Positions 3,917 to 60,873 of a stretch of 64,000 bases of DNA are shown here, one piece after another. Made by a program: the position numbers and the translations under genes. Position 1 is the first letter of the stretch; every line of letters starts with the position of its first letter. The notes beneath the pieces are model-generated. The model ran no database searches. It worked only from the letters and a program-made list of their open reading frames with translations, and had not been told where the DNA came from. The stretch is from the NCBI RefSeq assembly GCF_023276435.1, contig NZ_JALLPO010000003.1:62001-126000 (forward strand). Direction: 5' to 3'. This stretch comes from Sphaerisporangium perillae (GTDB lineage Bacteria > Actinomycetota > Actinomycetes > Streptosporangiales > Streptosporangiaceae).

Positions 3917-6430
<2,514 letters not shown>

Positions 6431-37029: not shown

Positions 37030-39036
37030 CTACCGCTTGTCGCCGCTGCCTCTCCGCTTGCCGTTGTTGACGTACCGCTTGAGGAAGGAGGCGTCCTTGG
37101 CGAGCTTCGCCGAGGGGACACCGCCGCGGAGCCGGTCGTTCTCTACGATCTTGATCGCCGTCGCGAAGGTGATCTTCTTGGTGACCTTGCCGGCGGCGTT
37201 GTAGGCGCCGTTGGCGTAGTTCAGCCACGCCGCCAGGAGCTGCTTGTCGAGGTCGGAGTGCTTGCCGGCGAGCAGCGCGTAGGCCTTCTTGATCGTGGAG
37301 ATGTCCACCTTCTCGTTGAAGACCCTGCTGCCGTCCGCGGCGATCTCGAGATAGCAGGCGAGTCTGGCGTCGGAGAGCCTGCCCTTGCCCGCCTTGAGTT
37401 CCGCGGCCCACTGGCCGACGGTGTAGGCGATCGTCGCATGGCCGCGCCCGCAGGACGGGGCGGTGTAGGTCGGGGCGTTCCCCCAGTTCGGGCTGGGCGT
37501 GGGCACGTACGTCCGGATGGGAGCCTGCGTGACCTTGGGAGTCGGGGCCGGGGACGCCGTGGTGGAGGGCGAGGACGACGGCGTGGCAGACGGGGTGGCA
37601 GACGGGGTGGGAGTGGGAGCGGGAGGAAGTGCCGCGAAGAGATCGATCCGCGGCGTCGTCACCTCGGCGCCGTCGCTCGGATAGGTGATCTTCTTGCCGG
37701 TGCTCTTGAGCTTGCTCTCCAGGGTGGCGACCGACGCGCCGGGATAGGCCGCCTTGAGGACCGCGAAGGCGCCCGCGACGTGCGGGGTGGCCATCGAGGT
37801 GCCGCTGAAGGCGGCGTAGGCGTCGTCCGGCACCGAGGAGTCGATGTCGACGCCCGGCGCGAACAGGTCGAGCAGCTTGCCGCGGTTGGAGAAGCCGGCC
37901 ACGGTGTCGTCGTCGGCGGTGGCGCCGACGGTGACCGCCGACGAGGTGCAGCCGGGCCAGTTGACGCCGCTCTCGGAGCCGTCGTTCCCCGCGGCGACCA
38001 CGGTGGCGACGCCCGCCGTGCGGAGGCCGTCGATGACGGTCTTGTACGGGCTCACCATGGGATCGCCGTTCTCGTCCAGGATCTGGTCGCACGGCGTGTC
38101 GATGAAGGTGCCGGGAATGCCGAGGCTCAGGTTGGCGGCGGCGATCGGCAGGTGCTGGGCGGTGGCGAGGCTCTGCACGTAGCTGAGACCGGTCAGGATG
38201 TCCCAGTCGTAGGCGTAGACGCAGGAGCCGGGCTGACCACCGCAGAAGTCGGGGGTGTTGCCGCGGGTGAACACCTGCACGGCGACGATGGCGGCGTCCG
38301 GGGCCACCCCGTCGCCGGGGGCGCCGGCCACGTTCTTGCCCGCCGCGATGCCGGCCACGTGGGTGCCGTGCGCGCAGAGGTTCTGGCCGCCGACGACGCA
38401 GTTGTCGTTCACGACGTCCGCGGCGCCGGGACCGGTCTGCACCGGGAGGTCGTTGGGGCAGAGGGGCTGCTCGTCCAGGATGGAAAGCGGGGTGGAGAAA
38501 CACGCCTGCGCCACGATCCGGTCCTTGAGGAACGGATGGTCGGTGTCCACACCGGTGTCCAGGATGGCCACAGCCTGTCCCGCGCCGGTCCGCCCGGCGG
38601 CGTGTGCCTTGTCGGCGCCGATCACCTTGGTGCTCGACGCGAGGGACGGCTTGTTCCGCCGGTCCTCGATGATCCACTTAACGTCCGGCGACCTTTTCAG
38701 GGCGTCCAGCGCCGCCTTGTTGACCGACAAGTCCAGGAGCGGCATCGGCACCTTGATCGAGGCGAGATGGTCCACCGTGGCCGCAGCGGGTTTGTCGGCC
38801 GCGCGCAGAACCGCCTGCTGCCTGTTCTTCTTGATCGCCACGATCACCCGGACGGGGGCCTGCGCGGCCTTGGCCTCCAGAGCCGCGCTGATCGGGACGG
38901 TCGGTATGGCCGCGGTGGCCACGCTGGTCGGGGAGAGCCCCGCGGTGACCGTTATCGCGACCACAGCAGTGACAAACAGTCTTCTGCCGGCTTTTGACAC
39001 AGGGGTGATGCCGGCGAAGCGGCGGCGCAAGCTCAT
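37030..39036 (-). CDS. secreted subtilisin-like serine protease (S8)
   Basis: A 668-aa preproprotein: signal peptide to about residue 43, an I9-like propeptide (VRVIVAIKKNRQQAVLR) and an S8 catalytic domain with Asp160 (LDTGVD), His223 (AHGTHVAG) and Ser414 (SGTSMATPH), all intact. A Pro/Ser/Thr linker (about 490-540) leads to a C-terminal helical domain of about 130 residues (TIKKAYALLAGKHSDLDKQLLAAWLNYANGA) often seen in actinobacterial exported proteins. It is divergent from the response regulator gene at 39259, with the shared ATGAC-N6-GTCAT site between them. Confidence 0.9.
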   Translation of the reverse strand: MSLRRRFAGITPVSKAGRRLFVTAVVAITVTAGLSPTSVATAAIPTVPISAALEAKAAQAPVRVIVAIKKNRQQAVLRAADKPAAATVDHLASIKVPMPLLDLSVNKAALDALKRSPDVKWIIEDRRNKPSLASSTKVIGADKAHAAGRTGAGQAVAILDTGVDTDHPFLKDRIVAQACFSTPLSILDEQPLCPNDLPVQTGPGAADVVNDNCVVGGQNLCAHGTHVAGIAAGKNVAGAPGDGVAPDAAIVAVQVFTRGNTPDFCGGQPGSCVYAYDWDILTGLSYVQSLATAQHLPIAAANLSLGIPGTFIDTPCDQILDENGDPMVSPYKTVIDGLRTAGVATVVAAGNDGSESGVNWPGCTSSAVTVGATADDDTVAGFSNRGKLLDLFAPGVDIDSSVPDDAYAAFSGTSMATPHVAGAFAVLKAAYPGASVATLESKLKSTGKKITYPSDGAEVTTPRIDLFAALPPAPTPTPSATPSATPSSSPSTTASPAPTPKVTQAPIRTYVPTPSPNWGNAPTYTAPSCGRGHATIAYTVGQWAAELKAGKGRLSDARLACYLEIAADGSRVFNEKVDISTIKKAYALLAGKHSDLDKQLLAAWLNYANGAYNAAGKVTKKITFATAIKIVENDRLRGGVPSAKLAKDASFLKRYVNNGKRRGSGDKR

Positions 39037-39160: not shown

Positions 39161-39176
39161 ATGACGAATTCGTCAT
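39161..39176. promoter_or_regulatory. 16-bp perfect palindrome, likely response-regulator site
   Basis: ATGACGAATTCGTCAT lies between the divergent subtilase and response regulator genes. The form ATGAC-N6-GTCAT recurs with the same spacing at 41087-41102 in front of the copper operon. This suggests autoregulation by the adjacent OmpR-type regulator. Confidence 0.6.
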
Positions 39177-39258
39177 TTTTGCGATCGTGCAGGTCATGCG
39201 CCCCGTGTTGCATAGCCATTTCCTTTGTGATGCTCTTGCTCCAGCAAAGGGGGTCCTG

Positions 39259-39927
39259 GTGGGACGGGTGTTGGTCGTCGAGGATGACGAGGGAATCGCT
39301 CGGCTGGTCGCGCGCGCCCTGCGTGACCACGGCCACGCCGTCGACACGGCGGCCACCGGGGACGAAGGGCTCGGCGCGGCGCTCTCCCGGGACTTCGATC
39401 TCGTGGTGCTGGATCTCATGCTGCCGGGGATCGACGGTACCGAGCTGCTCGAAAGGCTCGTCGATGCCCGGCCGGAGCAGCGGGTGCTCGTGTTGTCGGC
39501 CATGTCCGAGGTAGGTGTGCGGGTGGCGTGCCTGGAGGCGGGCGCGGCGGACTTCCTGGGGAAGCCGTTCGCCGTCGCCGAACTGGTCGCCAGGGTCCAC
39601 ACGCGATTGCGGGGGCAGGCCCCCGGCGCGGCCAAGCGATGGCTCGGGTCGGGAACAGTCCGGCTCGACCTCCGGTTCCATCGGGCCTTGGTCGACGGGC
39701 GTCAGATCGAGCTCTCGTTCCGGGAGTTCCTCCTCCTGCAGCACCTCATGCGCCGGGCCGGCCAGGCGTGCAGCCGGGCCGAACTGCTCGCGGACGTATG
39801 GGGAATGATCTTCGACCCTGGCAGCAACGTCGTCGACGTTTGCGTACGGCGGCTCCGATCCAAACTCGACCGTCCTAATCGAGTGGAAACGGTGCGTCAT
39901 GTCGGCTATCGATTCGCTGAGGACTAG
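39259..39927 (+). CDS. OmpR-family response regulator
   Basis: A 222-aa two-domain regulator. The receiver has the acidic pair at residues 8-10 (VVEDDEG), the phospho-acceptor Asp52 in VVLDLMLPG and Lys102 in GKPF. The winged-helix output domain has FREFLLLQHLMRR and NVVDVCVRRLRSKLD, the recognition helix. The GTG at 39259 follows AAAGGGGG; the longer ORF from 39187 is possible. The kinase gene overlaps the 3' end by 29 bp, so the two are made together. Sites fitting its dimer lie at 39161 and 41076-41102, and it probably controls the copper-oxidase operon. Confidence 0.9.
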   Translation: MGRVLVVEDDEGIARLVARALRDHGHAVDTAATGDEGLGAALSRDFDLVVLDLMLPGIDGTELLERLVDARPEQRVLVLSAMSEVGVRVACLEAGAADFLGKPFAVAELVARVHTRLRGQAPGAAKRWLGSGTVRLDLRFHRALVDGRQIELSFREFLLLQHLMRRAGQACSRAELLADVWGMIFDPGSNVVDVCVRRLRSKLDRPNRVETVRHVGYRFAED

Positions 39928-40966
39928 CAAGCTCCTCATCGGGGGCTGGGCGGCGAGCGCGGTGGTCAACATCGCGCTGATGTACGCGCTGCCGGGTGGG
40001 GAGACGATCCCCTTCCACCTGGTGTGGATCGGCCTCGCGCTGATCTACGGCTTCACCGTCTGGCGGGCGTGGAGCATGATCGTCACGCTGGTCGCCGTAA
40101 CGGTGAGCACGGGATACGTCTTCGCACATCACGCGATGCTGGGCGAGACCGGATGGGCGGAGACTTCGGAGGTCCCGCTCATGTCGGCGCTCTTCGGGGT
40201 CATGATCTGGCACGTGCGTCGCAGGCAGGTCGCGCTCGCCGAGGTGGCGAGGCTCGCGGCGGCGGAGCGGCGCAGGGCCGAGCGGCAGCAGCTGTTCGTC
40301 AGGCTGGCTTCGCACGAGCTGCGCACGCCGATCACGGTCGCGCGAGGCTACGTGGAGATGGTCAGGAACGTCTCGGACGAGTCGGCCACGGCCGATCTGA
40401 CGATCGTTCTGGAGGAACTGGACAAGCTCACCCGAATCAGCGAGCGGCTGGTCAAGCTGATGCAGGCGGACGTGGCCTACCGCAGGCACGTCAGGGACGT
40501 GGACGCCGAGCTGGTCCGCATCCTCCGCCGCTGGGAGCCGAGCGCGAACCGGGTGTGGTCGGTGACGTCCACCGTGGGCCTGATGCCGATCAACGAGGAG
40601 CGGCTGGAGGCGGCGCTCGACTGCCTGCTGGAGAACGCGATCAAGTTCACCCGGCCGGGAGATCACATCACCGTGTCCGGATTCACCTGGCCTGACTCCT
40701 GGGTGGTCGAGGTGACCGACACCGGGATCGGCATGACCGACGAGCAGGCCGCCGCCCTCACCTCGGCGACGGAGCCGCTACGCCACACCGCGACCGGCAC
40801 CGGCCTCGGGCTGGCGATCGCCCGCGCGGTGGTCGAGGCATGGGACGGCGACCTGCTGGTGACGAGCCGGATCGGCGTGGGAACCACCGTGTCGCTCCGG
40901 ATCCCGATCACCTCCCGTGATCAGATGGGCGGTCGCTCGATCTCGGCCAGGTCCATGACCGCCTGA
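39899..40966 (+). CDS. sensor histidine kinase
   Basis: A 355-aa membrane kinase. Three or four hydrophobic helices lie in the first 105 residues with very short outer loops, so the signal is probably sensed in or near the membrane. The phospho-accepting His139 is in LASHELRTP. The N box is LLENAIKF, G1 is DTGIGM and G2 is GTGLGLAIA. No HAMP or PAS domain intervenes. Paired with the response regulator by overlap. Confidence 0.9.
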   Translation: MSAIDSLRTSKLLIGGWAASAVVNIALMYALPGGETIPFHLVWIGLALIYGFTVWRAWSMIVTLVAVTVSTGYVFAHHAMLGETGWAETSEVPLMSALFGVMIWHVRRRQVALAEVARLAAAERRRAERQQLFVRLASHELRTPITVARGYVEMVRNVSDESATADLTIVLEELDKLTRISERLVKLMQADVAYRRHVRDVDAELVRILRRWEPSANRVWSVTSTVGLMPINEERLEAALDCLLENAIKFTRPGDHITVSGFTWPDSWVVEVTDTGIGMTDEQAAALTSATEPLRHTATGTGLGLAIARAVVEAWDGDLLVTSRIGVGTTVSLRIPITSRDQMGGRSISARSMTA

Positions 40967-41075
40967 ACGTCCAGGACCACCCGGCCATCCCATCCATGAC
41001 GGCGGGCAAGACCTCTTCTGCACGGCCGCTGCCACCCTGACGTCGCGCTCGGCTCCGGTGCGGGAACCGGCGCGC

Positions 41076-41138
41076 ATGACAGCCAGATGACAGTCTCGTC
41101 ATGAAGCGTGGCCGCCCTGGTCGGAACGGTCCCATGAT
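41076..41138 (+). promoter_or_regulatory. promoter of the beta-helix/copper operon with 11-bp-spaced activator sites
   Basis: ATGAC at 41076 and 41087 and GTCAT at 41098 are each 11 bp apart, the spacing used by OmpR/PhoB-type regulators. CATGAT (41133-41138) fits a -10 box, with no recognisable -35, as expected for an activated promoter. The -10 ends 6 nt before the ATG at 41145 and no ribosome site is present, pointing to a leaderless mRNA. Confidence 0.6.
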
Positions 41139-41144
41139 CCGGGC

Positions 41145-44100
41145 ATGAGTGGAGATCGAAGGACGCGTCGCCGTAGGTCAGGTCCGGCCGTGTGGGCCGC
41201 GGTCGCCGCCGTCGTCGCAGGGATGCTCCCAGCGCTCAGCGTGCAGCCCGCCGCGGCGCAGGCCGCCTCGATCACCATCGAGGCGCACGACCTCGCCACC
41301 GGCGCCACGCTGCCGGCGTTCCAGTACCTGGTCAACGTGGACAACACGCGGTTGCCCGACAACCCCGATCCGGCTCTGCGCACCGGGCTCGCGGCCACCG
41401 AGAGCAACAGTCCCATCGTCGCCGAGGGCGACCAGACCAGGCCGACGCTCACCCTCCCGGACGGGCGCTACCTGATCTCGATCAGGTCCGCCGACCACAA
41501 GATGTGGGGCAAGCACGTCACGCTGCCGCGCGACGCGGGAACGGTCCGCATCGACCTGTCCGAGGCCAGCGCGGCCCATCCGCTGCCGCTCGGCAAGATC
41601 CGCGTCTTCGTCTTCAACGACGACCAGTGGGCCAACGGCGCGCCGGACGCCGGCGAGGCCGGGCTCGAGGGCTTCCAGGTCACCCTGAAGGAGCAGACCG
41701 GCTCGCAGGTCTCGGTCGACTACCACAACGAGCCGCTGTGCGGCGGGGACTGCCGGACGGCCTCCGACGGTTTCGTCCAGGTCGACGACCTCTCCCCCGC
41801 CACCTACTGGGTCTATGTCACGCCACCGGACACCTGTGGCCCGGACGGGTCGGGCAGGTGGACGCAGACCACGACGATCACCGGCGGTCTGGGCCTGCAG
41901 GCCGGTGTGGAGGAGGGCAGCGACGGGACCGGCAATCCGGGCGAGGCGCTGTGGGTGCCGCCGGACCGTCGCACCGGCTACCAGTTCGGGTTCGTCTGCA
42001 CGGCCACGAACTTCGCCACTCCGGGCACCGGGTCGATCAGCGGCACCGCCAAGAACTGGAAGGCGTGGCCGCCGTTCGATGTGCTCTCCACGGCCGAGCC
42101 GGTCGAGAACCCCTACGTGGCCCTGACCAGCAGCGCCAACGACAACACCGTCTACGTCGGCCAGGGCGACGCCGAGGGCGGCTTCAGCATTCCCGACGTG
42201 CCGGCCGGTTCGTACATGATGTCGATCTGGGATGAGCAGCTCAGCTACATCATCCGCTTCCTGCCCGTCGACGTGGCCGCCGGGCAGAGCGTGGGTCTCG
42301 GCGATGTGGGCGTCTCCCGCTGGTTCGGCTGGCTGTCCGGGCACGTCTACCAGGACACCGGCGTCGCGCAGAACGGCACGGCCCTGCCCGCGGGCAGCAA
42401 GGCGAACGGCATCCGGGACTGCGCCGACGTCAACGACGAGGCCACGTGCGAGCCCACCATCCCCAACACCGACCTCGACCAGCGCTGGCGCGACGGCTCG
42501 ATCAAGGAGGCGACCTTCACCGACGCGCAGGGACGGTACGAGTACCCGACCTCGGAGGGCGGCATGCTCGGCAAGTGGTTCATCGGCGAGACCGGCTTCG
42601 CCAGATTCGGCACCACAGGAGCGTCCGTCCACAGCGAGTACGACCACACGCAGGTGACGCGCGTGCCCACCGACGCCGGCGGCGGGCTCCTCACCAACCA
42701 ACTCGTCATCGAGGGGCACCGCAGCGAGGTCGACTGGGGCAAGTACCCCTACGCCAACAACGAGCCGGGCCAGATCGTCGGCGTCGCCTACTACGCCACG
42801 ACGCGCAACGAGTTCGACGCGCGCATGCAGTTCCACGAGAACTACGAGCCTGGAATCCCCGGCGTGACCGTCCGGCTGGAGGGGCTCGGCGCCGACGGGC
42901 TGCCCAACACCGCGGACGACGTCGTGCTCAACGAGTACGTCACCGATCACTGGGAGCCTTCCGCCGACTGCGACGTCCTCGACCAGAACGGCGACGACAT
43001 CAGCGCCCAGCTCCATCCGCTGATCGGCCCCAAGTGCGTCGAGGTGCCCGCGACCGGCAACGAGACGAAGGACGCCGCCTTCGACGGCGGCTACGCCTTC
43101 GCCGACCAGTGCCCGGCGTCGGCCGGGGGCTTCGGCCACTTCGACGCCGGCGGCGACACGGTCTGCGGCAACGGAAGCGCCCCCGTTCCGCTGGTGGCCG
43201 GCACGTACATCACGCATGTGGTCATGCCCACCGCCCAGGACGACTCCCGTCCGTGCAACCCCGCCGGGCAGAAATACGTGAGCGGACCCGGTGGCAACGG
43301 CTGCCTGTACCGTCCTGTGCGCGAGGAGGACGTCAACGTCGACCTCGGCGCCCAGTACAACCCCGCGCTCCCGCCGCCCGCGTGCACCGGCGACGCGCAC
43401 GTCATCGACCAGTCGACGCTGACCTCGCGCAGCCCCTACTTCGGGGTCAGCCCGAGCCCGTCGAAGCCGCTGTGCGACAAGCGCCTGGTCGTGCTGCAGA
43501 ACAAGCAGAACGCCAACGCCGACTTCTTCATGATGACCAACTTCAAGAACGGACCGGACGTCGCGGAGCCGGGGCGCATCGTCGGGCTGGTCCCCGACGA
43601 CGTCTACTTCGACCGCGACCCCAAGTCCCTCTGGTACGGCGAGCCGCGCGTCCTCGGCAAGATCCCGATCGGGATCCGCGACTACACCGGGCGCCTGATC
43701 ACCACGGTCCTCACGAGCGAGTACGGCGGCTACGAGGCGCTGCTGCCCTCGACCGAGACGTTCAACTGCCCGATCCCCCAGGGACCCTGTCCCGGCATGT
43801 ACGTCGTAGTGATCAACGATCCCGGTGACAAGGCCCACCCGAACCCCACCTACAACCCCCACTACCTCACCGAGCGCTTCGCCTGGGACGTATGGCCGGG
43901 ACAGACCAACCAGCTCGACACGCCGGTGATCCCGATCGCCGGGACGGGCTGCGAACTGCCGGTCAACACCCCTGAGCTGCTGCAGGTCTCCAAGCCGTAC
44001 GTCACCGCGGGCGACTCCGCGACGGCGCGGCAGATCACCATCGACGGCGACTTCTTCGGCGCCGCCGCGGGCTCCGTCGTCCTCGGTGATCCGGCGGCGG

Positions 44101-46025
44101 GCCAGACGCGCATCCTGACGACCTCCAACGGCGGCATCGTCAGCTGGGGCGACCGCCAGATCGTGATCAGGGTCCCGGTGGTCGGGATCCTGTCCACCCA
44201 GATCAGGCCGGGGCCCAAACAGCTGACCATCCGCACCTCGGCCGGTGTCTCCACGCCCAACGGCCTGACCCTGCACGTGCGGGGCAACTCGGGCGGCGTG
44301 AACTACCAGCCGGCCATCGTGAACGTCGCGGCGCCGACCACCCCGAACGCCATCCAGAACGCCGTGAACGCGGCCGCCGCCGGAAGCCTGCTCGTCCTGC
44401 AGAAGGGCGTCTACCACGAGAACGTCCTGCTGTGGAAGCCGCTCGTCCTCCAGGGCCTCGGCCCGGGCGGCCTGGTCGGCTCCAGCGAGGCGCAGCAACG
44501 CGCGGTCGACGATCCCAGGTTCAACGTCCAGGGCACGACCATCGACGGCCGCTTCTTCCGCGACAACCAGGCGGCCTGGACCGCCGCGCTCACCGCTGCC
44601 GGTTCGCTGGCCGGGGTGGACGCCACGCACCCGCTCCTGCAAGGAGCGGTCATCACGGTGGCCGCCAAGACCACCACCGCCTTCCCCAGCGGGCTCGGAG
44701 CGGCCCGCATCGACGGCATCGGCATCACCAACGGCCACGGCCAGGGCGCCGGAGGCATCCAGCTCCACGCCTACGCCGCCAACCTGCAGATCACCAACGA
44801 CATCCTGGAGAGCGACGGCGGTGAGTTCGCCGGCGCCATCGCGGTCGGCCAGCCGTACCTCGACGGCCACAACACCGGCGTGCGGATCGCGAACGACCGG
44901 ATCATGGGCAGCGGCGGCCGGACCCGCTCGGGCGGTGTCGGCATCTTCCGCGGCTCGAACAACTACGAGGTGGCCTCCAGCGTCATCTGCGGGAACTTCT
45001 CGTTCGAGTACGGCGCCGGCATCTCCCACTGGGGCCTGTCACCCGGCGGCTCCATCCACGACAACCAGATCTACTACAACGACTCGGTCACCTCGGGGGC
45101 CGCCATCAGCATCGCCCAGGAGCTCCCCCGGCCACTGCCCGACGGGAGCACCCCGCTCGGCGACGGCTCGGGCAACGTCGACATCGACCGCAACCTGATC
45201 CAGTCCAACTACTCCGGTGACGACGGCGGCGGCCTCTTCGTCGAGAACGCCCACACCGCACGCGTCAACGTCCGCAACAACATGATCGTGGACAACGGGG
45301 CGGCCGACCTCGGCGGTGGCCTCATGCTGGACGACTCCGCCAACGTGGCGGTCGTCGGCAACACGGTCGCCAACAACGTGACGACGGCCTCCTGCGAGAC
45401 CTGCGACACGACGCCGCACGCCGCGGGCCTCGCCGCCGAGGCGAACGACCCGCTCTTCCAGGCGACCCTGCCCGCGGGGTCGGCGAAGTTCTCCAACCCG
45501 GCGGCGCTGTTCGACAACATCTTCTGGCAGAACCAGGCGTACACCCTCAGCCACCAAGGACCCGGCGCGGCGCTCGTCTCGCATGGCTACCTGGACTTCG
45601 AGGTACACGGCACCACGAGCGGAGCCGACACCTTCACGCCGCGCTACACGCTGCTGACGGCCGCGAGCATCCGCGGCTCGGACGGGGCCGATCACCCGCT
45701 TCCGGGCGGTCAGGGCAACATCATCGGCCAGGACCCGCAGTTCATACTGCCCTACACGCTGGAACTGGCGGTCGCGGGCTCGCGGCTGGACCCGCAGATG
45801 GCGAGCGTGACGATCACCGGGGAGGTCCCGCCGGTCGGACTCAGCGGGAACTACCACCTCGCGGCCGGTTCGCCCGCCATCAACAAGGGACCCACGTACT
45901 CCAACTACCCGGCCCTCCAGACCCCGAGCAGCATCCCGGCGCCCACCGTCGACTTCGACGGCCAGACGCGCCCGATCCTGCCCATCCCCCTTCCCTTCGA
46001 TCTCGGTGCGGACGAGGTGCAATGA
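41145..46025 (+). CDS. very large secreted beta-helix protein, first gene of copper operon
   Basis: 1626 aa with a signal peptide ending near AAAQAAS. The N-terminal 900 residues form a series of beta-sandwich modules of SdrD-B/Cna-B style (KIRVFVFNDDQWANGAPDAG, SGHVYQDTGVAQNG, IVGVAYYATTRNEFDAR), each beginning like a repeated collagen-binding-type unit. An IPT/TIG-like domain lies near 940-1045. From about 1060 a right-handed parallel beta-helix is clear (AIQNAVNAAAAGSLLVLQKGVYHENVLL, then repeated N-rich turns such as SVICGNFSFEYGAGISHWG). The end PFDLGADEVQ is typical of such helices. No sortase motif or membrane anchor is seen. Function unknown; binding or scaffolding of the cuproproteins is my inference. 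The stop overlaps the next ATG. Confidence 0.85.
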   Translation: MSGDRRTRRRRSGPAVWAAVAAVVAGMLPALSVQPAAAQAASITIEAHDLATGATLPAFQYLVNVDNTRLPDNPDPALRTGLAATESNSPIVAEGDQTRPTLTLPDGRYLISIRSADHKMWGKHVTLPRDAGTVRIDLSEASAAHPLPLGKIRVFVFNDDQWANGAPDAGEAGLEGFQVTLKEQTGSQVSVDYHNEPLCGGDCRTASDGFVQVDDLSPATYWVYVTPPDTCGPDGSGRWTQTTTITGGLGLQAGVEEGSDGTGNPGEALWVPPDRRTGYQFGFVCTATNFATPGTGSISGTAKNWKAWPPFDVLSTAEPVENPYVALTSSANDNTVYVGQGDAEGGFSIPDVPAGSYMMSIWDEQLSYIIRFLPVDVAAGQSVGLGDVGVSRWFGWLSGHVYQDTGVAQNGTALPAGSKANGIRDCADVNDEATCEPTIPNTDLDQRWRDGSIKEATFTDAQGRYEYPTSEGGMLGKWFIGETGFARFGTTGASVHSEYDHTQVTRVPTDAGGGLLTNQLVIEGHRSEVDWGKYPYANNEPGQIVGVAYYATTRNEFDARMQFHENYEPGIPGVTVRLEGLGADGLPNTADDVVLNEYVTDHWEPSADCDVLDQNGDDISAQLHPLIGPKCVEVPATGNETKDAAFDGGYAFADQCPASAGGFGHFDAGGDTVCGNGSAPVPLVAGTYITHVVMPTAQDDSRPCNPAGQKYVSGPGGNGCLYRPVREEDVNVDLGAQYNPALPPPACTGDAHVIDQSTLTSRSPYFGVSPSPSKPLCDKRLVVLQNKQNANADFFMMTNFKNGPDVAEPGRIVGLVPDDVYFDRDPKSLWYGEPRVLGKIPIGIRDYTGRLITTVLTSEYGGYEALLPSTETFNCPIPQGPCPGMYVVVINDPGDKAHPNPTYNPHYLTERFAWDVWPGQTNQLDTPVIPIAGTGCELPVNTPELLQVSKPYVTAGDSATARQITIDGDFFGAAAGSVVLGDPAAGQTRILTTSNGGIVSWGDRQIVIRVPVVGILSTQIRPGPKQLTIRTSAGVSTPNGLTLHVRGNSGGVNYQPAIVNVAAPTTPNAIQNAVNAAAAGSLLVLQKGVYHENVLLWKPLVLQGLGPGGLVGSSEAQQRAVDDPRFNVQGTTIDGRFFRDNQAAWTAALTAAGSLAGVDATHPLLQGAVITVAAKTTTAFPSGLGAARIDGIGITNGHGQGAGGIQLHAYAANLQITNDILESDGGEFAGAIAVGQPYLDGHNTGVRIANDRIMGSGGRTRSGGVGIFRGSNNYEVASSVICGNFSFEYGAGISHWGLSPGGSIHDNQIYYNDSVTSGAAISIAQELPRPLPDGSTPLGDGSGNVDIDRNLIQSNYSGDDGGGLFVENAHTARVNVRNNMIVDNGAADLGGGLMLDDSANVAVVGNTVANNVTTASCETCDTTPHAAGLAAEANDPLFQATLPAGSAKFSNPAALFDNIFWQNQAYTLSHQGPGAALVSHGYLDFEVHGTTSGADTFTPRYTLLTAASIRGSDGADHPLPGGQGNIIGQDPQFILPYTLELAVAGSRLDPQMASVTITGEVPPVGLSGNYHLAAGSPAINKGPTYSNYPALQTPSSIPAPTVDFDGQTRPILPIPLPFDLGADEVQ

Positions 46026-47218
46026 GCATGAAACGGAGGGACCTCCTCAAAGCGGGAGCCCTGGCCGGCGGCCTGCTGATCGGAGGGCGGGCCCTGCAGG
46101 GCTCGGCGGAGGCCGCCGCCAACCCCGAGGCCAGGATCGGCCTCGCCGGCACCGACGGGCACATCACCCTTCCCGGCAGGGGCCCGCTCTACATCTTCGG
46201 GTTCGCCACGGTCCCCCTGGCGGCGTCCGTCGGTGACCTGGTCGCGAACTACAAGGGCAAGGCGCAGCACGTGGCGCCGATCCTCGACGTCAAGCAGGAC
46301 AACGACGTGTACATCACGCTGACCAATCTCGGGCTGGTCGGCCGGCCGGACCTCGTCGACGCCCACACCATCCACTGGCACGGCTTCCGGACGCCGTCCG
46401 CGCTGTTCGACGGCGTGCCCGAGGCCTCGATCGGCGTGCCGATCGAGCGCCAGTTCACCTACTTCTTCCGGCCGCACAACCCGGGCACGTACATGTACCA
46501 CTGCCACTTCGAGGACGTCGAGCACGTGCAGATGGGCATGACGAGCATCGTCTTCGTGCGTCCCGCCCAGGACGGCGGCTCGGCGCTGGACCCGCTGCAC
46601 CGGACCACGACCTACGCCTACAACGACGGGGACGGCTCCACCGCCTACGACCGGCACTTCGCGATCCTGCTCAACGAGATCGAGGAACGGGAGCACGACG
46701 CGGACGAGCAGATCCAGGAGTTCATCTTCACCGACTACGACCCGCAGTACTTCACGCTGAACGGCCGGGTCTACCCGCAGACGATCCTGCCCAATAATGA
46801 CCCCTCGCTGCCCTACCAGCCGGTGTCGTCGCTGATCCAGGCGAACCCGGGTGACCGGGTGCTGCTGCGGCTGGCCAACCTCGGATACCTCCAGCACGCG
46901 ATGCAGCTGCCGGGCATCCCGATGAAGGTCGTCGGGGAGGACGCCACGCCGCACAGCTTCCCGTACGTCACCAACACGCTCTACATCGGCCCCGGCGAGG
47001 CGCGCGACGTCCTGTTCACCGCGCCGCCGTTCAACCCCTCCGCGCCGGTGACGACCGACGCGCGCGGCTCGTACAACACCTACCTGTTCAAGAACCGGGA
47101 CTTCCGGCGCCTGTCCAACCGCGGCTCGCCGGGACTCGGCGGCATGGCGACGGAGGTCAGGGTGTACCAGGGTTCGCCGCTACCGGCCCAGACCTCCGTG
47201 GGGGAAACCTATGCGTAA
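46022..47218 (+). CDS. multicopper oxidase-like protein carrying HWHG and HCH motifs, Tat-exported
   Basis: 398 aa. A twin-arginine signal is visible (MSMKRRDLLKAGALAGGLL). The first cupredoxin domain holds His118 and His120 in IHWHG (motif L1) and His160-Cys161-His162 with His168 and Met173 in YHCHFEDVEHVQMGM, so the same domain has type-1 copper ligands (Cys, His, Met) as well as trinuclear histidines. The second half is cupredoxin-like but has no HPxHxH motif. It is not a complete oxidase by itself. The missing histidine motifs occur in the next gene. ATGA overlaps the previous stop; the 3' end overlaps the next gene by 8 nt. Confidence 0.85.
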   Translation: MSMKRRDLLKAGALAGGLLIGGRALQGSAEAAANPEARIGLAGTDGHITLPGRGPLYIFGFATVPLAASVGDLVANYKGKAQHVAPILDVKQDNDVYITLTNLGLVGRPDLVDAHTIHWHGFRTPSALFDGVPEASIGVPIERQFTYFFRPHNPGTYMYHCHFEDVEHVQMGMTSIVFVRPAQDGGSALDPLHRTTTYAYNDGDGSTAYDRHFAILLNEIEEREHDADEQIQEFIFTDYDPQYFTLNGRVYPQTILPNNDPSLPYQPVSSLIQANPGDRVLLRLANLGYLQHAMQLPGIPMKVVGEDATPHSFPYVTNTLYIGPGEARDVLFTAPPFNPSAPVTTDARGSYNTYLFKNRDFRRLSNRGSPGLGGMATEVRVYQGSPLPAQTSVGETYA

Positions 47219-48878
47219 GGCACTCCTCGCGGCGGCCGCGCTGCTGGTCGCCTTCGCGCCGAGTGCGCGGGCACAGGCGCCGGCGGTCCCCCGCCAGGGA
47301 ATCGTCTGCACCAACGGCACGACCTTCGACCTGACCGCGACGCCGGGGTACATCGAGACCCCGGACGGCAACAGCGTCCTGATGTGGAGCTACGCCCTGG
47401 CCGGCGGGGAATTCCAGAGCCCGGGCCCGGTGCTCTGCGTCAACGAGGGTGACAGCGTGACGGTCCACCTGCACAACGACCTCACCGAGCCCGTCTCGAT
47501 CGTCTTCCCCGGCCAGACGGGAGTCGGCGGCTCGGGAAGCTCCGGGCTGCTCGCCAAGGAGGCACCCGCGGGCGGTGACGCCACTTACACCTTCACGGCG
47601 TCGCAACCAGGGACGTACGTGTACGAGAGCGGAACCGACCCCGAAAAGCAAGTCGAGATGGGCCTCTACGGAGCGCTGATCGTGCGGCCGGCCGGGCACC
47701 CGGACTACGCGTACGACGCGGCGACCCGTTTCGACCCGCAGCGGGAGTACCTCGTCCTGCTCAGCGACATCGACCCGGACCTCCACCACGCCGTGGAGAC
47801 GGGCGCCCCCTACCACTTCGACCAGCTGCGCAACCGCTACTTCGCGATCAACGGGCGCCAGTTCCCCGACACCCTCCAGGACAACGGGGTGTCGTGGCTG
47901 CCCGCGCAGCCGTACGGGTCGCTCATCCGCGTCAAGCCGTACAACGCCACCGGCAACCCGCTGCCCGCGCTCATCCGCATGGCGAACGTGGGGACGGTCA
48001 ACCACCCCTTCCATCCGCACGGGAACCACATCAAGGAGGTCGCCCAGGACGGCAGACCGCTCCGCACCCCGGGCGGCGGCGACGCCTCGAGCGAGCATTT
48101 CGCCGAGACGATCGGCTCGGGCCAGACGCAGGACTACCTGTTCTCCTGGACCGACCAGGATTCGTGGAACCCCGGGAGCAATCCGTTCCCCGCTTCGGTG
48201 GCCTCGCCGGACTACCGGAACCTGACCTTCAAGGACGGCAACACCTGGTCCAGCGGCAGCGCCTACCTCGGGTCGAAGGGCACCCTGCCCGTAGGCACCG
48301 TCTCGCAGAACATCTGCGGCGAGTGGTACTTCCCCTGGCACAGCCACGCGCTCAACGAGTTCACCAACTACGACGCGGGCTTCGGCGGCATGGCGACCCT
48401 CCTGCGGGTGGACCCGCCCGGTGGCTGCACGGCCGTCGCCGGCACCGCCTCGATCCTGGCCGGCACGCTCAACTCGGGAACCGCCACCGCCCTGGCCGCG
48501 GCCGACACGGCCTACTACAAGGTCAACTCCACGGTCTCCGGTACCAGGACGGCCGACTGGTACGGCGGCTTCACCGGGGTGCCCCGCGGTTCGACGGGCC
48601 TCGCCGTCACCTACACCGGCCGCAACTCGATCGCAGCCCTGCCCACCACGCTGTGGATCTGGAAGTGGTCGACCAGCACGTGGGTTCAGATGGGCGCCGC
48701 GACCGGCGTCGGCACCTCGGACGTCACGTCGACCCGGACGCCTCCGTCACCGCAGTCCGACTACATCGGGACGGGCGCCAACGCGGGCAAGGTGCGCGTG
48801 CGCGTGCTGACGACCGGCACGACCACCAACTTCGTCACGCAGGGCAACCTGCTCAAGCTGACCTACGACGCGCCGTGA
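47211..48878 (+). CDS. multicopper oxidase-like protein with HPFHPHG and HSH motifs
   Basis: 555 aa with a Sec signal peptide (LLVAFAPSARAQA). Two cupredoxin domains are followed by a beta-rich tail of about 150 residues. The first domain has lost its copper histidines (VSIVFPGQ and YVYESGT at the expected places). The second has His265, His268 and His270 in NHPFHPHG (motif L3) and His377/His379 in PWHSH (the L4 position), where the usual Cys of HCH is Ser378. Thus it offers the other half of the trinuclear ligands but no type-1 Cys. GGGGGAAACCT precedes the ATG. Confidence 0.85.
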   Translation: MRKALLAAAALLVAFAPSARAQAPAVPRQGIVCTNGTTFDLTATPGYIETPDGNSVLMWSYALAGGEFQSPGPVLCVNEGDSVTVHLHNDLTEPVSIVFPGQTGVGGSGSSGLLAKEAPAGGDATYTFTASQPGTYVYESGTDPEKQVEMGLYGALIVRPAGHPDYAYDAATRFDPQREYLVLLSDIDPDLHHAVETGAPYHFDQLRNRYFAINGRQFPDTLQDNGVSWLPAQPYGSLIRVKPYNATGNPLPALIRMANVGTVNHPFHPHGNHIKEVAQDGRPLRTPGGGDASSEHFAETIGSGQTQDYLFSWTDQDSWNPGSNPFPASVASPDYRNLTFKDGNTWSSGSAYLGSKGTLPVGTVSQNICGEWYFPWHSHALNEFTNYDAGFGGMATLLRVDPPGGCTAVAGTASILAGTLNSGTATALAAADTAYYKVNSTVSGTRTADWYGGFTGVPRGSTGLAVTYTGRNSIAALPTTLWIWKWSTSTWVQMGAATGVGTSDVTSTRTPPSPQSDYIGTGANAGKVRVRVLTTGTTTNFVTQGNLLKLTYDAP

Positions 48879-48886
48879 GGACGACA

Positions 48887-49771
48887 ATGCGCAGAACCAT
48901 GGTGCTGATCCTGATCGCGGTGGGCCTGACCCTTCCGGCCTCGCCCGCGAGCGCGGCGGACGTCTCGATCGACCTGTGCGCCTCAGCGGGCACGCTCACG
49001 CTCCCCGGCCCGGTCACCGCGAACATCTGGGGGTTCGCCCTGGCCGGCTCCGGCGGCTCGTGCGCGGGCGTGACGCCGTCCGTGCCGGGACCCGTGCTGT
49101 CGGTGGACCAGGGCGACACCGTCTCCATCGCGGTGCACAACACCCTGACCACCCCGGTCTCGCTGGAGGTGCCCGGGCTCTCCCTCGGCCAGGGCGCGGG
49201 AATCAGCGCTCCGGCGGGCGGCGCCGCGACCGCGACGTTCACCGCCTCCGCGCCCGGCACCTACCTCTACCAGGGGACCGAGCGGCAGGTCCCGATGGGG
49301 CTCTACGGCGCGCTCATCGTGCGCCCTCCCACGGCGGGGCAGGCGTACGGCTCGGCCACCACCGCCTACGACCGTGAGGCGCTGCTGGTGCTCTCCGCGA
49401 TCGACCCGGCGTTCAACGCCTCACCGGCCACCGCCGATCTCTACCACTACGCGCCGAAGTTCTGGCTGATCAACGGCAAGGCCTACCCGGACACCGATCT
49501 CGTCCACGGGGTGGCGCCGGGGACCAAGGTGCTGCTGCGCTACCTGAACGCGGGCTTCGACAACACCTCGATGCGGCTGCTCGGCGCGTACGAGCGGGTA
49601 CTCGCCCGGGACGCCCACCCTCTGGCGAACCCGTTCGACGCCACCGCCGAAACCATCCCCGCCGGGGGGACGGAGGACGCCTTGGTGACCATCCCCGCCA
49701 CGGGCACCAGGTTCCCCGTCTACAACCGCCAACTCCACAAGACCATGCTGACCTTCATCGAGGTCCCGTGA
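48887..49771 (+). CDS. cupredoxin-domain protein lacking copper ligands
   Basis: 294 aa with signal peptide ending at ASAADVS. Two cupredoxin-like domains resemble those of the preceding gene (SVPGPVLSVDQGDTVSIAVHNTL; YLYQGTERQVPMGLYGALIVRP). None of the HxH copper motifs survives, so it may be structural, a docking subunit for the oxidase pair, or a degenerate paralogue. It begins 8 bp past the previous stop and its stop overlaps the next GTG (GTGA). Confidence 0.8.
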   Translation: MRRTMVLILIAVGLTLPASPASAADVSIDLCASAGTLTLPGPVTANIWGFALAGSGGSCAGVTPSVPGPVLSVDQGDTVSIAVHNTLTTPVSLEVPGLSLGQGAGISAPAGGAATATFTASAPGTYLYQGTERQVPMGLYGALIVRPPTAGQAYGSATTAYDREALLVLSAIDPAFNASPATADLYHYAPKFWLINGKAYPDTDLVHGVAPGTKVLLRYLNAGFDNTSMRLLGAYERVLARDAHPLANPFDATAETIPAGGTEDALVTIPATGTRFPVYNRQLHKTMLTFIEVP

Positions 49772-50274
49772 GCGAACCCGGTGCCGGCGAGGTACTGGCG
49801 TGGGCGACCCGGCGTGCCCGCAGGCTGGGGCTGCTCGCCGTCCTCCTGGCCGTGGGGCTGGTCGGGAGCCTCCTCTGGTCACCGTCCGGCCCGGCGTCCA
49901 CGGCCCCCGCCCAGGCGAAGCCGGTCCTCGACCGCCCGGTGGTCGCCGCGGACGAGCTCCCCAACCGGGCGGGGATCCGGCTCGTCCGGGTCTCGGTGAG
50001 CGGCGCCGGGGGCCTGGTCGACCTGCGTTACCAGGTGCTGGACCCGGACAAGGCCCAGGCCGTCCACGAGGCCGCCACCCCGCCGGTCCTCATCGACGAG
50101 GCATCCGGAGTGGTCGTCAAGGACCTGTACATGGGCCACGCGCACACCGGCACGTACAAGCCCGCCGTCACCTACTACCTGGTCTTCGAGAATCCCGGCA
50201 ACTGGGTGCGCCGGGGAAGCGAGGTAACGGTGCTGCTGGGCGACGCGCAGGTGGAACATGTCCAGGTCTCCTAG
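49768..50274 (+). CDS. membrane-anchored small protein in copper operon
   Basis: 168 aa. One membrane helix near 18-38 (RLGLLAVLLAVGLVGSLLW) anchors an outer domain of about 125 residues with LVRVSVSGAGGLVDLRYQVLD and LYMGHAHTGTY, a His/Met pair suitable for copper. I do not recognise a named domain. Its place between the oxidase genes and copC-copD suggests a copper handover or assembly protein. The GTG overlaps the previous stop and the 3' end overlaps copC-D by 17 nt. Confidence 0.7.
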   Translation: MSEPGAGEVLAWATRRARRLGLLAVLLAVGLVGSLLWSPSGPASTAPAQAKPVLDRPVVAADELPNRAGIRLVRVSVSGAGGLVDLRYQVLDPDKAQAVHEAATPPVLIDEASGVVVKDLYMGHAHTGTYKPAVTYYLVFENPGNWVRRGSEVTVLLGDAQVEHVQVS

Positions 50275-51790
50275 GATCATCTGCGGCCTGCTCGCCCTCG
50301 TCGCCGTGGTCCTGTGGGCCCCGCCGGCCGCGGCGCACGCCGTGCTCCTCGAGTCCGATCCGGTGAACGGATCGGCCCTCGCCGGGGCGCCGCGGGCGGC
50401 CGTCCTGACGTTCAGTGAGCACATCGCGGCACGGTTCAGCTCGGCCCGGCTCGTGGACGCCTCCGGCCGCGTCCTCGGGGGCGCCCGGGCCACCGCCCGG
50501 GGAGACCGCCTCACCGTCGAGTTGCCCCGCCTCGCCGTCGGCGCGTACGGCATCGCCTGGCGGGTCCTCGCGGAGGACGACGGGCACACGACCGACGGCG
50601 TCGTGGTCTTCACCATCGGGTCCGTGCCCTCCGCTGTGACCGTCCCCGCGCGCGTTTCCGGCCCGGAGCCGTTCGACGTGGTCCTGCGGTGGGTGCGGCT
50701 GTGCCTGCTCGCCGGGCTCGTCGGTGGCCTGGCGGTGGCCGGTCTCGTCCTGCGCCGGACCGTGCCGCCGGTGCCGCCTGACTGGTGGGCCGCGGCCAGG
50801 CACCGGCTGCTCACGCTCGCCGCGGCCTGCGCCGCGCTGGGGGTGGCCGCCGATCTGGCCGAACTCGCCGGCAAGCCGCTGGCCACCCAGTGGGGGCGGC
50901 TCTGGTTCGTCAGGACGGTGGCGCTCGCGCTCCTCGCGGTGTGCGCGCTCGTCCTGCGCCGCTCGATGTCCGTGCGCCGGGTGATCGCGCCGGTGACGGT
51001 GGCGGCGGTGATCGTCGCGGTGTCGGCCGAGGCGTGGGGTGGTCATGCCGCGGCCCTCGGCGGCCTGACGATCGCCGCCGACGCGGTGCACATCCTCACC
51101 GCATGTCTTTGGCTGGGCTCGGTGGCGGCGCTCGGTGTCCTGCTGGCGGCGCGGGCGGGACACGGCCTGGCGCTGGTGCGCGCCTACCGGGCCCCGTTCG
51201 CCCGCCTGGCCCTGACCGGGGCGGTCCTGGTCGGGCTGACGGGCCTGTTCCACGCCGCGAGCCAGATCGGGTCGGCCGACGCTCTGCTCACCTCGCCGTA
51301 CGGCAGGACGCTGCTGGTCAAGGGCGGGATCGTGGCCGTGGTCGCCGCCTTGGGGCTGGCCAACGCCCTCCGCTCCCGCCCATCGGGCCGGCTGCTGGTG
51401 GCCGAGGCGGGGGCGGGAGCCGTACTGCTCCTCGCCGCGGGGGTGCTCGCCGAGACGAGCCCGGCCCGCCCGGCGGCCGTGGGGCCGGCGGTGGCGCGCA
51501 GTCGCAGCGCGAACGTGGCCGACCTGGTCATCGGGCTCTCGGTCACGCCCAACCGGGCCGGCGTGAACGGCTTCACGGTGACCGCCGCCAGCTCGCGCAG
51601 GCCGGCGCCCGCCCCGATCGACGGCGTCACGCTCGAGCTGCCCAAGGGCGGGATCGTGCTGAGGCGGCTCGAGCCCGGCCGCTACTTCGGCACCGGTTCG
51701 CTGGAGCTGTCCGGTCCCGCGCGGCTGACCGTTGTCGTGTATCGCGCGGGGGCGCGTCTGGAAGTGCCCATGACGTGGAGTGTCGGATGA
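50258..51790 (+). CDS. CopC-CopD fusion copper protein
   Basis: 510 aa. After a signal sequence the mature chain begins with His (PAAAHAVLLESDP), the first copper ligand of CopC. DDGHTTDG supplies the further Asp/His ligands. About eight membrane helices (about 140-395) form the CopD domain, with HAAALGG and ADAVHILTACLWLG histidines typical of copper import. The final 95 residues (VIGLSVTPNRAGVNGFTV) are a beta-sandwich of the YcnJ C-terminal type. Expected to move copper inward or load cuproenzymes. ATGA overlaps the next gene. Confidence 0.9.
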   Translation: MSRSPRIICGLLALVAVVLWAPPAAAHAVLLESDPVNGSALAGAPRAAVLTFSEHIAARFSSARLVDASGRVLGGARATARGDRLTVELPRLAVGAYGIAWRVLAEDDGHTTDGVVVFTIGSVPSAVTVPARVSGPEPFDVVLRWVRLCLLAGLVGGLAVAGLVLRRTVPPVPPDWWAAARHRLLTLAAACAALGVAADLAELAGKPLATQWGRLWFVRTVALALLAVCALVLRRSMSVRRVIAPVTVAAVIVAVSAEAWGGHAAALGGLTIAADAVHILTACLWLGSVAALGVLLAARAGHGLALVRAYRAPFARLALTGAVLVGLTGLFHAASQIGSADALLTSPYGRTLLVKGGIVAVVAALGLANALRSRPSGRLLVAEAGAGAVLLLAAGVLAETSPARPAAVGPAVARSRSANVADLVIGLSVTPNRAGVNGFTVTAASSRRPAPAPIDGVTLELPKGGIVLRRLEPGRYFGTGSLELSGPARLTVVVYRAGARLEVPMTWSVG

Positions 51791-53691
51791 AACGCGCAAT
51801 CTTGATCACTGTGATCTCCCTGGCGGCGGCGATGCCCGCCACCACGGCGACAGCCGTACCGGATCCGATGACCCAGGCCATCGTGGTGCTCAGGGACCAG
51901 GTGGACCCGGGCGGGATCCAGGAGCCGGGACGGCACCGGCGCAGGGCCGCCCTGGAGCGGGCGCTGCGGGCGAGGGCCGATGCCGGGCAGCGGGATCTGC
52001 TCGGGCTGCTGCGGGCGCGGCGGTCCCAGGGACTGGTCTCCGCCGTGCGGTCGCTGTGGATCTTCAACGGGATCGCGGTGACCGCGACCCCGTCGGTGCT
52101 GTCGGAGCTCGCCGCGCGACCCGAGGTGCGGGAGATCCGGCCCGACCTGAAGATCCAGGCGCCCGCGCTACTGGCATCCACCGGTCCCGCGGAGCCGAAC
52201 GTGGCGCTCCTCGGCGCTCCGGCGCTGTGGGACCTCGGCCACCGGGGCCAGGGAGTGGTCGTGGCCACGCTGGACACCGGCGTCGACGCCACCCATCCCG
52301 ACCTCGCGGGACGCTACCGGGGGGGCGCCAACAGCTGGTACGACCCGAACGGCGAGCACCCGAGCACTCCCATCGACGTGAGCGGCCACGGCACCGCGAC
52401 CATGGGGGTCATGGTCGGCGGCGACGCGGGCGGCACCGCCATCGGCATCGCTCCGGACGCGAAGTGGATCGCTGCGAAGATCTTCAACGATAGGGGGACC
52501 GCCACCGCCGGCGGCATCCACCTCGCCATACAGTGGCTGATGGACCCGGACGGCAACCCTGACACCGCGGACGCGCCCGACGTCGTGAACAACTCTTGGA
52601 CCGGCTCCGCGGGCGGGTGCGCCCTCGACTTCCAGCTCGACCTGAGGAACCTGCGCGCGGCGGGGATCCTGCCGGTGTTCGCCGCGGGGAACTCCGGGCC
52701 GACGGCGGGATCGGTATACGCTCCCGCCAACAACGCGGAGGCGTTCGCCGTGGGCGCCACCGACAACGCCGGCGTGCTCGACCCGTCGAGCGGCCGCGGG
52801 CCCTCTCCCTGCGCGGGGGCGGCCGCCCCGCGGCTGACCGCGCCCGGCGTCAACATCACGACCACGGACCTTTACGGGCTCTACACGGTCGCCTCCGGCA
52901 CCTCGCTGTCCGCACCGCACGCGGCGGGCGCACTCGCGCTGCTCCTCAGCGCCTACCCTGACCTGGACGCCGACCGGCAGGCGGCCGCGCTGCAGAACAG
53001 CGCGGTGGATCTCGGCGCCCCGGGTTTCGACAACGACCACGGGTACGGCAGGTTGGACGCCCTGGCCGCCTACCAGTGGCTCGCCTCCGCGCCCGACTTC
53101 ACGCTGGCCGTCACGCCTTCGTCGAGGACCGCGCGCGTGGGCGGCAGCGCCGCCTACACCGCCACGGTGGGAGCGATGAACGGCTTCACCGGCGCGGTCG
53201 CGCTGTCGGTCGCCGGTCTTCCCGCCGGTGCGACCGCTTCGTGGACGCTCCCGAGCATCCCGGGGTCGGGCGGCTCGCAGCTGACCGTGTCCACCCCTGC
53301 GGGAGTGGCTCCGGGCGGCTACCCCCTGACGATCAGCGGGAGCAGCGGCGGCCTCAGCCACTCGACGCAGGTCACGCTCGTGGTCAGCGTCGGGGACTTC
53401 GCCCTCTCCGCGAGTCCCGCCACCTTGTCGGTCGTCCGAGGCGGGTCGGCGAGCTCCACCGTGTCGGTCTCTGTGGCAGGCGGTTTCAGCGGGAGCGTGT
53501 CGCTGTCGGCGAGCGGCCTGCCGTCCGGGTCGACGGCGGGCTTCGCCGCCACCCCGGTCGCGGCGCCGGGCACCTCGCGGCTGACCGTCCGCACCACCTC
53601 CTCGACCGCCCGTGGCACGTTCACCGTGATCGTCGCAGGGGTCTCGGGACCGCTCGTCCACCGGGCGACGGTGACCCTCACCGTACGGTGA
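51787..53691 (+). CDS. secreted subtilase (S8) with C-terminal Ig-like domains
   Basis: 634 aa. A signal peptide, a short propeptide and an S8 domain are visible, with Asp163 (LDTGVD), His201 (GHGTATMG) and Ser373 (SGTSLSAPH). After about residue 440 come two beta-sandwich domains beginning FTLAVTPSSRTARVGGSAAY and FALSASPATLSVVRGGSAS. It is the last gene of the operon and overlaps CopC-D by ATGA. It may process the exported oxidase or the beta-helix protein; this is inference from context. Confidence 0.88.
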   Translation: MKRAILITVISLAAAMPATTATAVPDPMTQAIVVLRDQVDPGGIQEPGRHRRRAALERALRARADAGQRDLLGLLRARRSQGLVSAVRSLWIFNGIAVTATPSVLSELAARPEVREIRPDLKIQAPALLASTGPAEPNVALLGAPALWDLGHRGQGVVVATLDTGVDATHPDLAGRYRGGANSWYDPNGEHPSTPIDVSGHGTATMGVMVGGDAGGTAIGIAPDAKWIAAKIFNDRGTATAGGIHLAIQWLMDPDGNPDTADAPDVVNNSWTGSAGGCALDFQLDLRNLRAAGILPVFAAGNSGPTAGSVYAPANNAEAFAVGATDNAGVLDPSSGRGPSPCAGAAAPRLTAPGVNITTTDLYGLYTVASGTSLSAPHAAGALALLLSAYPDLDADRQAAALQNSAVDLGAPGFDNDHGYGRLDALAAYQWLASAPDFTLAVTPSSRTARVGGSAAYTATVGAMNGFTGAVALSVAGLPAGATASWTLPSIPGSGGSQLTVSTPAGVAPGGYPLTISGSSGGLSHSTQVTLVVSVGDFALSASPATLSVVRGGSASSTVSVSVAGGFSGSVSLSASGLPSGSTAGFAATPVAAPGTSRLTVRTTSSTARGTFTVIVAGVSGPLVHRATVTLTVR

Positions 53692-55511: not shown

Positions 55512-55625
55512 CGCCGGTGCCTCCCGCCATGCGCCTGATGTCTCCCGTCCATCCCGGCGCGGCCGCTGGATCTCCGCACGGCCACGCCCGCTCCTGCGCG
55601 ACCACCCGCTACAGGTACTGCGGAT

Positions 55626-56314: not shown

Positions 56315-56385
56315 GGTTCGTGCCACGGCTCGTACTTTAGGCACGATCAACCGGATGCGAACACCGATTCGACTCCACACCATCC

Positions 56386-56428: not shown

Positions 56429-56438
56429 CGCGTTTCCT

Positions 56439-56457: not shown

Positions 56458-56466
56458 TCTCCACAC

Positions 56467-60839: not shown

Positions 60840-60873
60840 CTGGGGGACCATCCTTCGCTCACCGAGGGGCGTT

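Follow-up and report, generated by a model that had tools for sequence, protein, structure and literature searches.

The gene cluster in Sphaerisporangium perillae

We analyzed a stretch of 64,000 nucleotides from Sphaerisporangium perillae (contig NZ_JALLPO010000003.1, positions 62,001 to 126,000; in the following called the window). The study was focused on a chain of seven closely packed genes at 41145-53691, which is preceded by the genes of a response regulator and a sensor kinase. The chain encodes a giant protein with a beta-helix (BH), three cupredoxin proteins (A, B and C), a small membrane-anchored protein, a CopC-CopD fusion and a subtilase. BH and A overlap by four nucleotides and A and B by eight, an 8-bp gap lies between B and C, and the remaining junctions are overlaps of four (C/small membrane protein), 17 (small membrane protein/CopC-CopD) and four nucleotides (CopC-CopD/subtilase). 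The original prediction, which had been made by a model from the letters of the window, had described seven coupled genes with these overlaps and this gap, and all junctions turned out to be exact upon re-reading. The genome comprises 9.3 Mb in 120 contigs, and the nearest rows in the subunit A tree belong to the Streptosporangiaceae.

The first gene of the chain (41145..46025, + strand) encodes BH, a predicted exported protein of 1626 amino acids with immunoglobulin (Ig)/prealbumin-like repeats and a C-terminal beta-helix, as judged from domain matches and co-occurrence. The families found were SdrD_B, fn3_3 and CarboxypepD_reg-type domains, together with a weak beta-helix match. No solved structure matched BH at the sequence level, and assignment to NosD (TIGR04247) was rejected (37 bits versus a cut-off of 300, over 83 residues only). 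It is followed on the same strand by three two-domain cupredoxins with Cu-oxidase domains, namely A, which carries a twin-arginine leader (46022..47218), B (47211..48878) and C (48887..49771).

Copper ligands are divided between A and B

Relatives were searched using subunit A alone, with one genome per species. Of 130 pattern matches 94 were confirmed, and the best 80 of these represented 79 distinct loci (L numbers). In A, the residues H115, H118, H120, H160, C161, H162, H168 and M173 were invariant in all 80 rows. Alignment to known oxidases placed all of them in domain 1 and identified them as one type-1 copper site plus four trinuclear histidines; the type-1 ligands are H115, C161, H168 and M173 (80/80), their roles being taken from the alignment to 3g5w. 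The residues lie in the motifs HTIHWHG (residues 115-121, 46364..46384, +) and HCHFEDVEHVQMGM (residues 160-173, 46499..46540, +). Domain 2 of A contained HxH in only 8 of 80 rows, at two spots off the motif.

The distribution in B was the reverse. Four trinuclear histidines of domain 2, H268, H270, H377 and H379, were invariant in all 77 rows reaching them (78 rows in total); in the window they form the motifs HPHG (residues 268-271, 48012..48023, +) and HSH (residues 377-379, 48339..48347, +), as aligned. B lacks the HCH cysteine of the type-1 site, and HxH occurred in its domain 1 in 6/77 rows, including the window, by eye off the motif. C is devoid of copper-ligand motifs: two HxH were found in none and one HxH in four of 62 rows, and the third protein of the Bacillota had no HxH inside the matched region in any of 11 loci. 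Hence, a chain with all eight trinuclear histidines was not found among these proteins; four occur only in A and four only in B. From the motif count and the tree described below, C is a probable structural third subunit.

The best solved relatives of A are the two-domain enzymes 3g5w, which we take to be of type C, and 2zwn. When the profile of B was compared with 3g5w, the HxHG and HCH motifs of domain 1 were lost and HTHG of domain 2 was matched; HDH was matched as well, but within a very weak stretch. In the profile of A, by contrast, ligands were lost in domain 2. According to an excerpt of PMC13151041, two-domain oxidases are trimers with a trinuclear site built by residues of two protomers, and the type C class has its type-1 copper in the N-terminal domain. 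Because the ligands are split and because the site of two-domain oxidases is shared by two protomers, at least as that excerpt describes it, A and B look like complementary halves of a type C enzyme. The division of the ligands would also explain their constant co-occurrence. Most likely, A, B and C are thus complementary parts of one enzyme, a point that goes beyond the original prediction.

Could A, B and C instead act independently, with A serving as an electron carrier of the blue-copper type or as a partial oxidase, B and C as binding proteins, and no shared site? This alternative would fit the fact that an A-B-C complex is predicted only and that a model of the concatenated subunits fails to superpose on six-domain oxidases (see below). 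However, separate proteins would not need four invariant trinuclear histidines in A and another four in B, the three genes always lie next to each other where the contig leaves room, and single-chain relatives hold the sum of both sets. We therefore consider independent action very unlikely.

The single-chain relatives were found in a phylum sample around a Tepidibacillus genome, in which 33 of 348 genomes matched A at 1e-40. Nineteen matched at 1e-117 or better, one match was fragmented, and 13 were weaker (1e-58 to 1e-76) and sit in frames of 474-569 amino acids. Two of the 19 strong matches with flanking sequence (L101 and L102) both showed the order BH-A-B-third cupredoxin, and two more, in the short loci L093 and L095, had the same junctions; L094 is the genome of L102 again. 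Five of the weaker matches were inspected, and in four stand-alone proteins (L096-L099, two of them near-identical) the full ligand set is present in one chain. BH, B and C were not found in the stretch taken around each of these four genes. In L098, a relative of the small membrane protein is encoded at 5931-6296 (-), beside the stand-alone oxidase and without BH.

In a tree of 41 rows, A (99/97), B (82/74), C (94/93) and the stand-alone proteins (100/100) each formed one group. Duplication followed by complementary loss of copper sites would be the simplest account of the origin of A, B and C.

Conserved core, variable add-ons and the Bacillota version

Neighboring genes were counted at loci where the contig leaves room, and for the add-on genes a locus was regarded as roomy at 7.5 kb. 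BH adjoined A in 73/73 and B lay downstream of A in 75/75 loci, 70 of them recognized by script and five by direct reading (L023, L037, L040, L058 and L080, in which the stop-to-stop frame begins early). A third cupredoxin was present in 69/69 loci; 58 matched C, and the 11 from Bacillota scored best against B, yet fall inside group C in the tree. BH aligned across most of its length in 68 of 77 loci, those with a long enough match. These four genes form the widely conserved unit, and clusters with the order BH-A-B-C span Actinomycetota, Chloroflexota and Bacillota. In a sample of 396 actinobacterial genomes, A (cut-off 1e-60), BH (1e-20) and B (1e-40) matched the same three genomes and no others, one being the window's own, which was also the only match among 61 genomes of the family. 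The system is thus rare and patchy in Actinomycetota. Both the recurrence of the gene order in 79 loci found via A alone and the match of A, BH and B to the same three genomes exceed chance.

The small membrane-anchored protein (49768..50274, +; 168 amino acids) belongs to the conserved core in Actinomycetota and Chloroflexota, where it was found in 49/49 roomy loci; it was present in none of eight roomy Bacillota loci. It has one predicted helix, a beta-sandwich and a conserved histidine 126. A Pfam scan gave no family, and a comparison of 28 members with Pfam yielded weak matches only, each of the 25 shown being to a single member. A fold search revealed no clear solved fold, with Ig-like domains as best matches (E 1e-3). 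Identity with MnxE or MnxF was rejected, as no PDB match carried either name.

The remaining genes are variable. The CopC-CopD fusion (50258..51790, +), which matches both families and is probably involved in copper handling, had counterparts anywhere in the locus in 43/49 roomy loci of Actinomycetota and Chloroflexota and in 0/8 of Bacillota. For the exported subtilase (51787..53691, +; Peptidase_S8), the respective values were 22/49 and 1/8, the sole Bacillota match being distant, upstream and on the opposite strand. The view that seven families travel together was thus borne out for the BH-A-B-C unit, outside the Bacillota also for the small membrane protein, and mostly for CopC-CopD. For the subtilase it held in under half of the loci, and the Bacillota lack the add-ons apart from the one distant subtilase. 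A search for other conserved neighbors yielded nothing beyond two-component genes, which are lineage-specific and were each seen in six loci. In L046, a single open frame at 5686-9858 (+) comprises both a subtilase domain and a region resembling BH, which hints at cooperation between the two proteins; this locus contains parts of two clusters in tandem. Three subunit A copies lie on three contigs of an Anaerolineae genome (G062, locus L025). Long versions of C (L092 at 3950-9709 (-), L024, L054, L059 and L090) carry Ig-like and regulatory-type domains after the cupredoxins, and some pieces of the L092 version match B of the window in its C-terminal region.

The frequency of CopC-CopD outside the Bacillota is what would be expected if the genes formed a copper homeostasis operon of the CopA/PcoABCD type, which detoxifies by Cu(I) oxidation and in which the giant protein and the subtilase would be passengers. 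The regulator is also closest to a heavy-metal regulator subfamily, its best NCBIfam match, though with 185 bits versus a cut-off of 279. However, CopC-CopD is absent from the roomy Bacillota loci and CopC was not found in any of seven Bacillota genomes searched, whereas BH is present at every locus with enough room. Furthermore, CopA (TIGR01480) was rejected as identity of the cupredoxins, as A, B and C reached 54.5, 49.9 and 41.5 bits versus a cut-off of 478.95. A homeostasis operon thus appears improbable.

The regulatory genes encode an OmpR-type response regulator (39259..39927, +) and a sensor histidine kinase (39899..40966, +), both recognized by family matches; 178 nucleotides separate the kinase gene from BH. 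The frame of the regulator is open from 39187, and GTG at 39259, a start common to related loci, is the more likely start. Apart from this revision, the upstream pair and the gene families were as originally predicted. Among the Actinomycetota loci, a similar regulator was present in 34/52 and a kinase in 32/52, contig ends not being allowed for, and the pair is lineage-specific. Upstream of BH, the direct repeat ATGACAG-N4-ATGACAG (41076..41093, +) is a candidate regulator-binding site, with one match in the window versus 0.07 expected; a period of 11 bp is typical of OmpR-type sites. The repeat recurs exactly at near-equal distance in L006 and L009, farther away in L026 and L038, and also in L048, and with one base changed in L008, L011, L014, L033, L040, L041 and L053. 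Upstream of the regulator gene, a perfect 16-bp palindrome (39161..39176) shares its ATGAC/GTCAT halves with this site; it had one match in the window, with 0.05 expected at three mismatches, and similar sequences were seen by eye in L006 and L008. The two-component system probably switches the operon via the repeat, and the palindrome is possibly a site of autoregulation.

Further genes flank the cluster. A second subtilase gene (37030-39036, -) diverges from the regulator gene, and weak subtilase matches occupy the equivalent position in L006 and L008. Downstream follow an IS605 OrfB/TnpB-like gene (55376-56584, -), with a helix-turn-helix domain above and an OrfB domain just below the cut-off, and a gene for a glycoside hydrolase family 3 protein with a CBM6 module (57999-60851, -).

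The predicted localization differs between the phyla. Leader sequences are present in the window's genes and in most scored relatives from Actinomycetota and Chloroflexota; for scoring, rows without a recognizable anchor were dropped. Outside the Bacillota, a strong hydrophobic stretch was found in 42/42 B and 16/19 BH proteins. In Bacillota, A had neither a twin-arginine motif (0/9) nor a hydrophobic stretch (0/8), and such a stretch was found in 1/9 B proteins, upstream of the likely start, and in 0/10 BH proteins. Inspection by eye revealed no leader in 12 Bacillota loci with a judgeable N-terminus; L079 lacks B at a contig end, and in L074 the start of BH is broken. Most of the Bacillota concerned are endospore formers: the sporulation gene spoIVA was found in 10/12 Bacillota genomes with the cluster, versus 1/14 controls (Bacillus subtilis). 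A CATANNNT box lies at -70 to -40 of BH in 4/10 Bacillota loci (0.5 expected, p 0.0008, in an interval chosen after viewing the sites), and the longer CATANNNTA precedes BH in two of the ten (p 0.08). We take both to be consensus sequences of mother-cell sigma factors. Together, these features suggest mother-cell expression and placement on the spore surface for the Bacillota version. In manganese-oxidizing bacilli, the oxidation is done by spores, as stated in an excerpt of PMC5622069.

A proposed divided oxidase and its comparison with known systems

We propose, with a probability of about 0.75, that the cluster encodes a surface multicopper oxidase made from separate polypeptides, with A, B and C in a ring, one active site, and BH as partner. 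The three subunits would have arisen through duplication of a two-domain multicopper oxidase of type C, the ancestral homotrimer of which would have contained three identical active sites. Domain 1 of A would have retained the type-1 copper together with four trinuclear histidines, and domain 2 of B the remaining four. C would have kept none of these ligands, such that one active site would be left in the A-B-C ring. Electrons from the substrate would enter at the type-1 copper in A, and oxygen would be reduced at the trinuclear cluster between A domain 1 and B domain 2. Judging from its size, its repeat architecture and its constant presence, BH is most likely a scaffold, which would fix the oxidase to the cell or spore surface. 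CopC-CopD, where present, would handle copper.

The assembly was modeled with the help of L064, in which the three cupredoxin genes share one frame with single stops between them; a fusion of A and B was not found among the 79 loci. A first mixed alignment had put B-C rows of L066, L073 and L074 on A, and these rows and L075 were left out before folding. The AlphaFold2 model had a mean predicted local distance difference test (pLDDT) score of 75.9 and a predicted template modeling score of 0.62, with the lowest values around residues 86-102, 660-706 and 739-767. 3g5w fits two domains of the model, with a template modeling (TM) score of 0.74 of 3g5w's own length. Foldseek matched the concatenation to factor V relatives, ceruloplasmin and the Mnx complex along six domains (E 1e-50 to 1e-40).

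Several observations weigh against the proposed divided oxidase. The Foldseek TM scores to six-domain oxidases were near 0.22 and the root mean square deviations near 34 A. The domain folds thus agree but their arrangement does not, and the model fails to confirm the ring. The folded chain of 1078 residues is artificial, as the L064 genes were read through, and its alignment had 31 rows. The pLDDT was below 50 at residues 86-102, which adjoin a ligand motif. Interaction of the subunits, copper content and activity are predicted only. Group B is supported by only 82/74, and the tree is unrooted, therefore the order of the duplications is not fixed. In L065, the third cupredoxin of the Bacillota version is spread over two frames, and the fifth stand-alone protein (L100, 8816-10237, +), perhaps a pseudo-enzyme, has lost most copper ligands. 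Outside the Bacillota, only 43/67 A proteins had a twin-arginine motif and only 18/67 a strong hydrophobic stretch. Lastly, the proposal does not account for strict anaerobes such as Moorella, which keep the predicted oxygen-reducing enzyme.

The sequence fixes the ligand set of an oxidase rather than its substrate. Two candidates are possible to about the same, limited degree, namely Mn(II)/Fe(II) and phenolics or polymers of the surface, which would be oxidized or cross-linked; Cu(I) is less likely. The original prediction of a copper-dependent extracellular oxidation machine is upheld in outline by the leaders and by the invariant ligand set spread over two proteins, but the two-component pair is not a fixed part of it. 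Searches of the open-access literature (PubMed Central) for a multicopper oxidase that is split or heteromeric, for an operon joining a beta-helix protein with an oxidase, and for manganese oxidation by organisms carrying the cluster yielded no such report. Tentatively, the clusters could represent a widespread undescribed class, in which two proteins jointly form the trinuclear cluster and a pseudo-six-domain heterotrimer on a BH scaffold would oxidize Mn(II)/Fe(II) on actinobacterial and chloroflexotal cells and on Bacillota spores, anaerobes included.

The path from homotrimeric two-domain to six-domain oxidases such as ceruloplasmin is usually told via gene fusion. The cluster points to another route, in which duplicated genes lose copper sites in a complementary manner and stay unfused, such that one active site would be encoded by two genes, and single-chain relatives survive in other genomes beside the divided form. 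It may be a clean case for testing divided catalysis, a concrete question that is directly testable. It would also be a new candidate enzyme for the oxidation of metals or polymers in groups whose enzyme is still sought, and a possible spore-surface oxidase in anaerobes.

Four known systems resemble the cluster. CopA/PcoABCD also combines a multicopper oxidase with CopC and CopD, but A, B and C are below the CopA cut-off, and we know of no counterpart of BH, B and C in that system. Ceruloplasmin, hephaestin and factors V/VIII share a six-domain, pseudo-threefold design that has in places lost most of its copper sites, and ceruloplasmin and factor V relatives are among the best Foldseek matches of the concatenation. 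However, these proteins are fused single chains, with the trinuclear site between domains 1 and 6 and type-1 copper in even domains, according to the excerpt of PMC3600357.

The MnxEFG complex of Bacillus spores (9bxa) is similar in its six cupredoxin domains, its accessory proteins and its fold (Foldseek match to 9bxa_A, E 1.2e-40), and a link to spores would be shared by the Bacillota version. To our knowledge, it has no beta-helix partner. These likenesses, together with the presumably spore-linked Bacillota version, would also suit a split or diverged MnxG-type six-domain manganese oxidase. But MnxG is a single chain that has its type-1 copper in domain 2, and in bacterial six-domain oxidases the trinuclear site lies between domains 2 and 3 (excerpt of PMC3600357), whereas the cluster has three separate genes, the type-1 site in A domain 1 and the other half of the trinuclear ligands in B domain 2. 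Moreover, the 43 PDB sequences that matched A at 1e-6 did not include MnxG. A split MnxG was rejected on these grounds and is the least probable of the alternatives.

The closest likeness to the proposed oxidase is found in the type C two-domain oxidases (3g5w and 2zwn), with two cupredoxin domains, type-1 copper in domain 1 and trinuclear ligands from domains 1 and 2. Known members have all ligands in one chain and form homotrimers; the cluster distributes the ligands over A and B and, in addition, comprises C, which has no ligands, and the giant BH. Most likely, what is new is that a heteromeric multicopper oxidase, associated with BH, has a divided active site; it would be a variant of type C.

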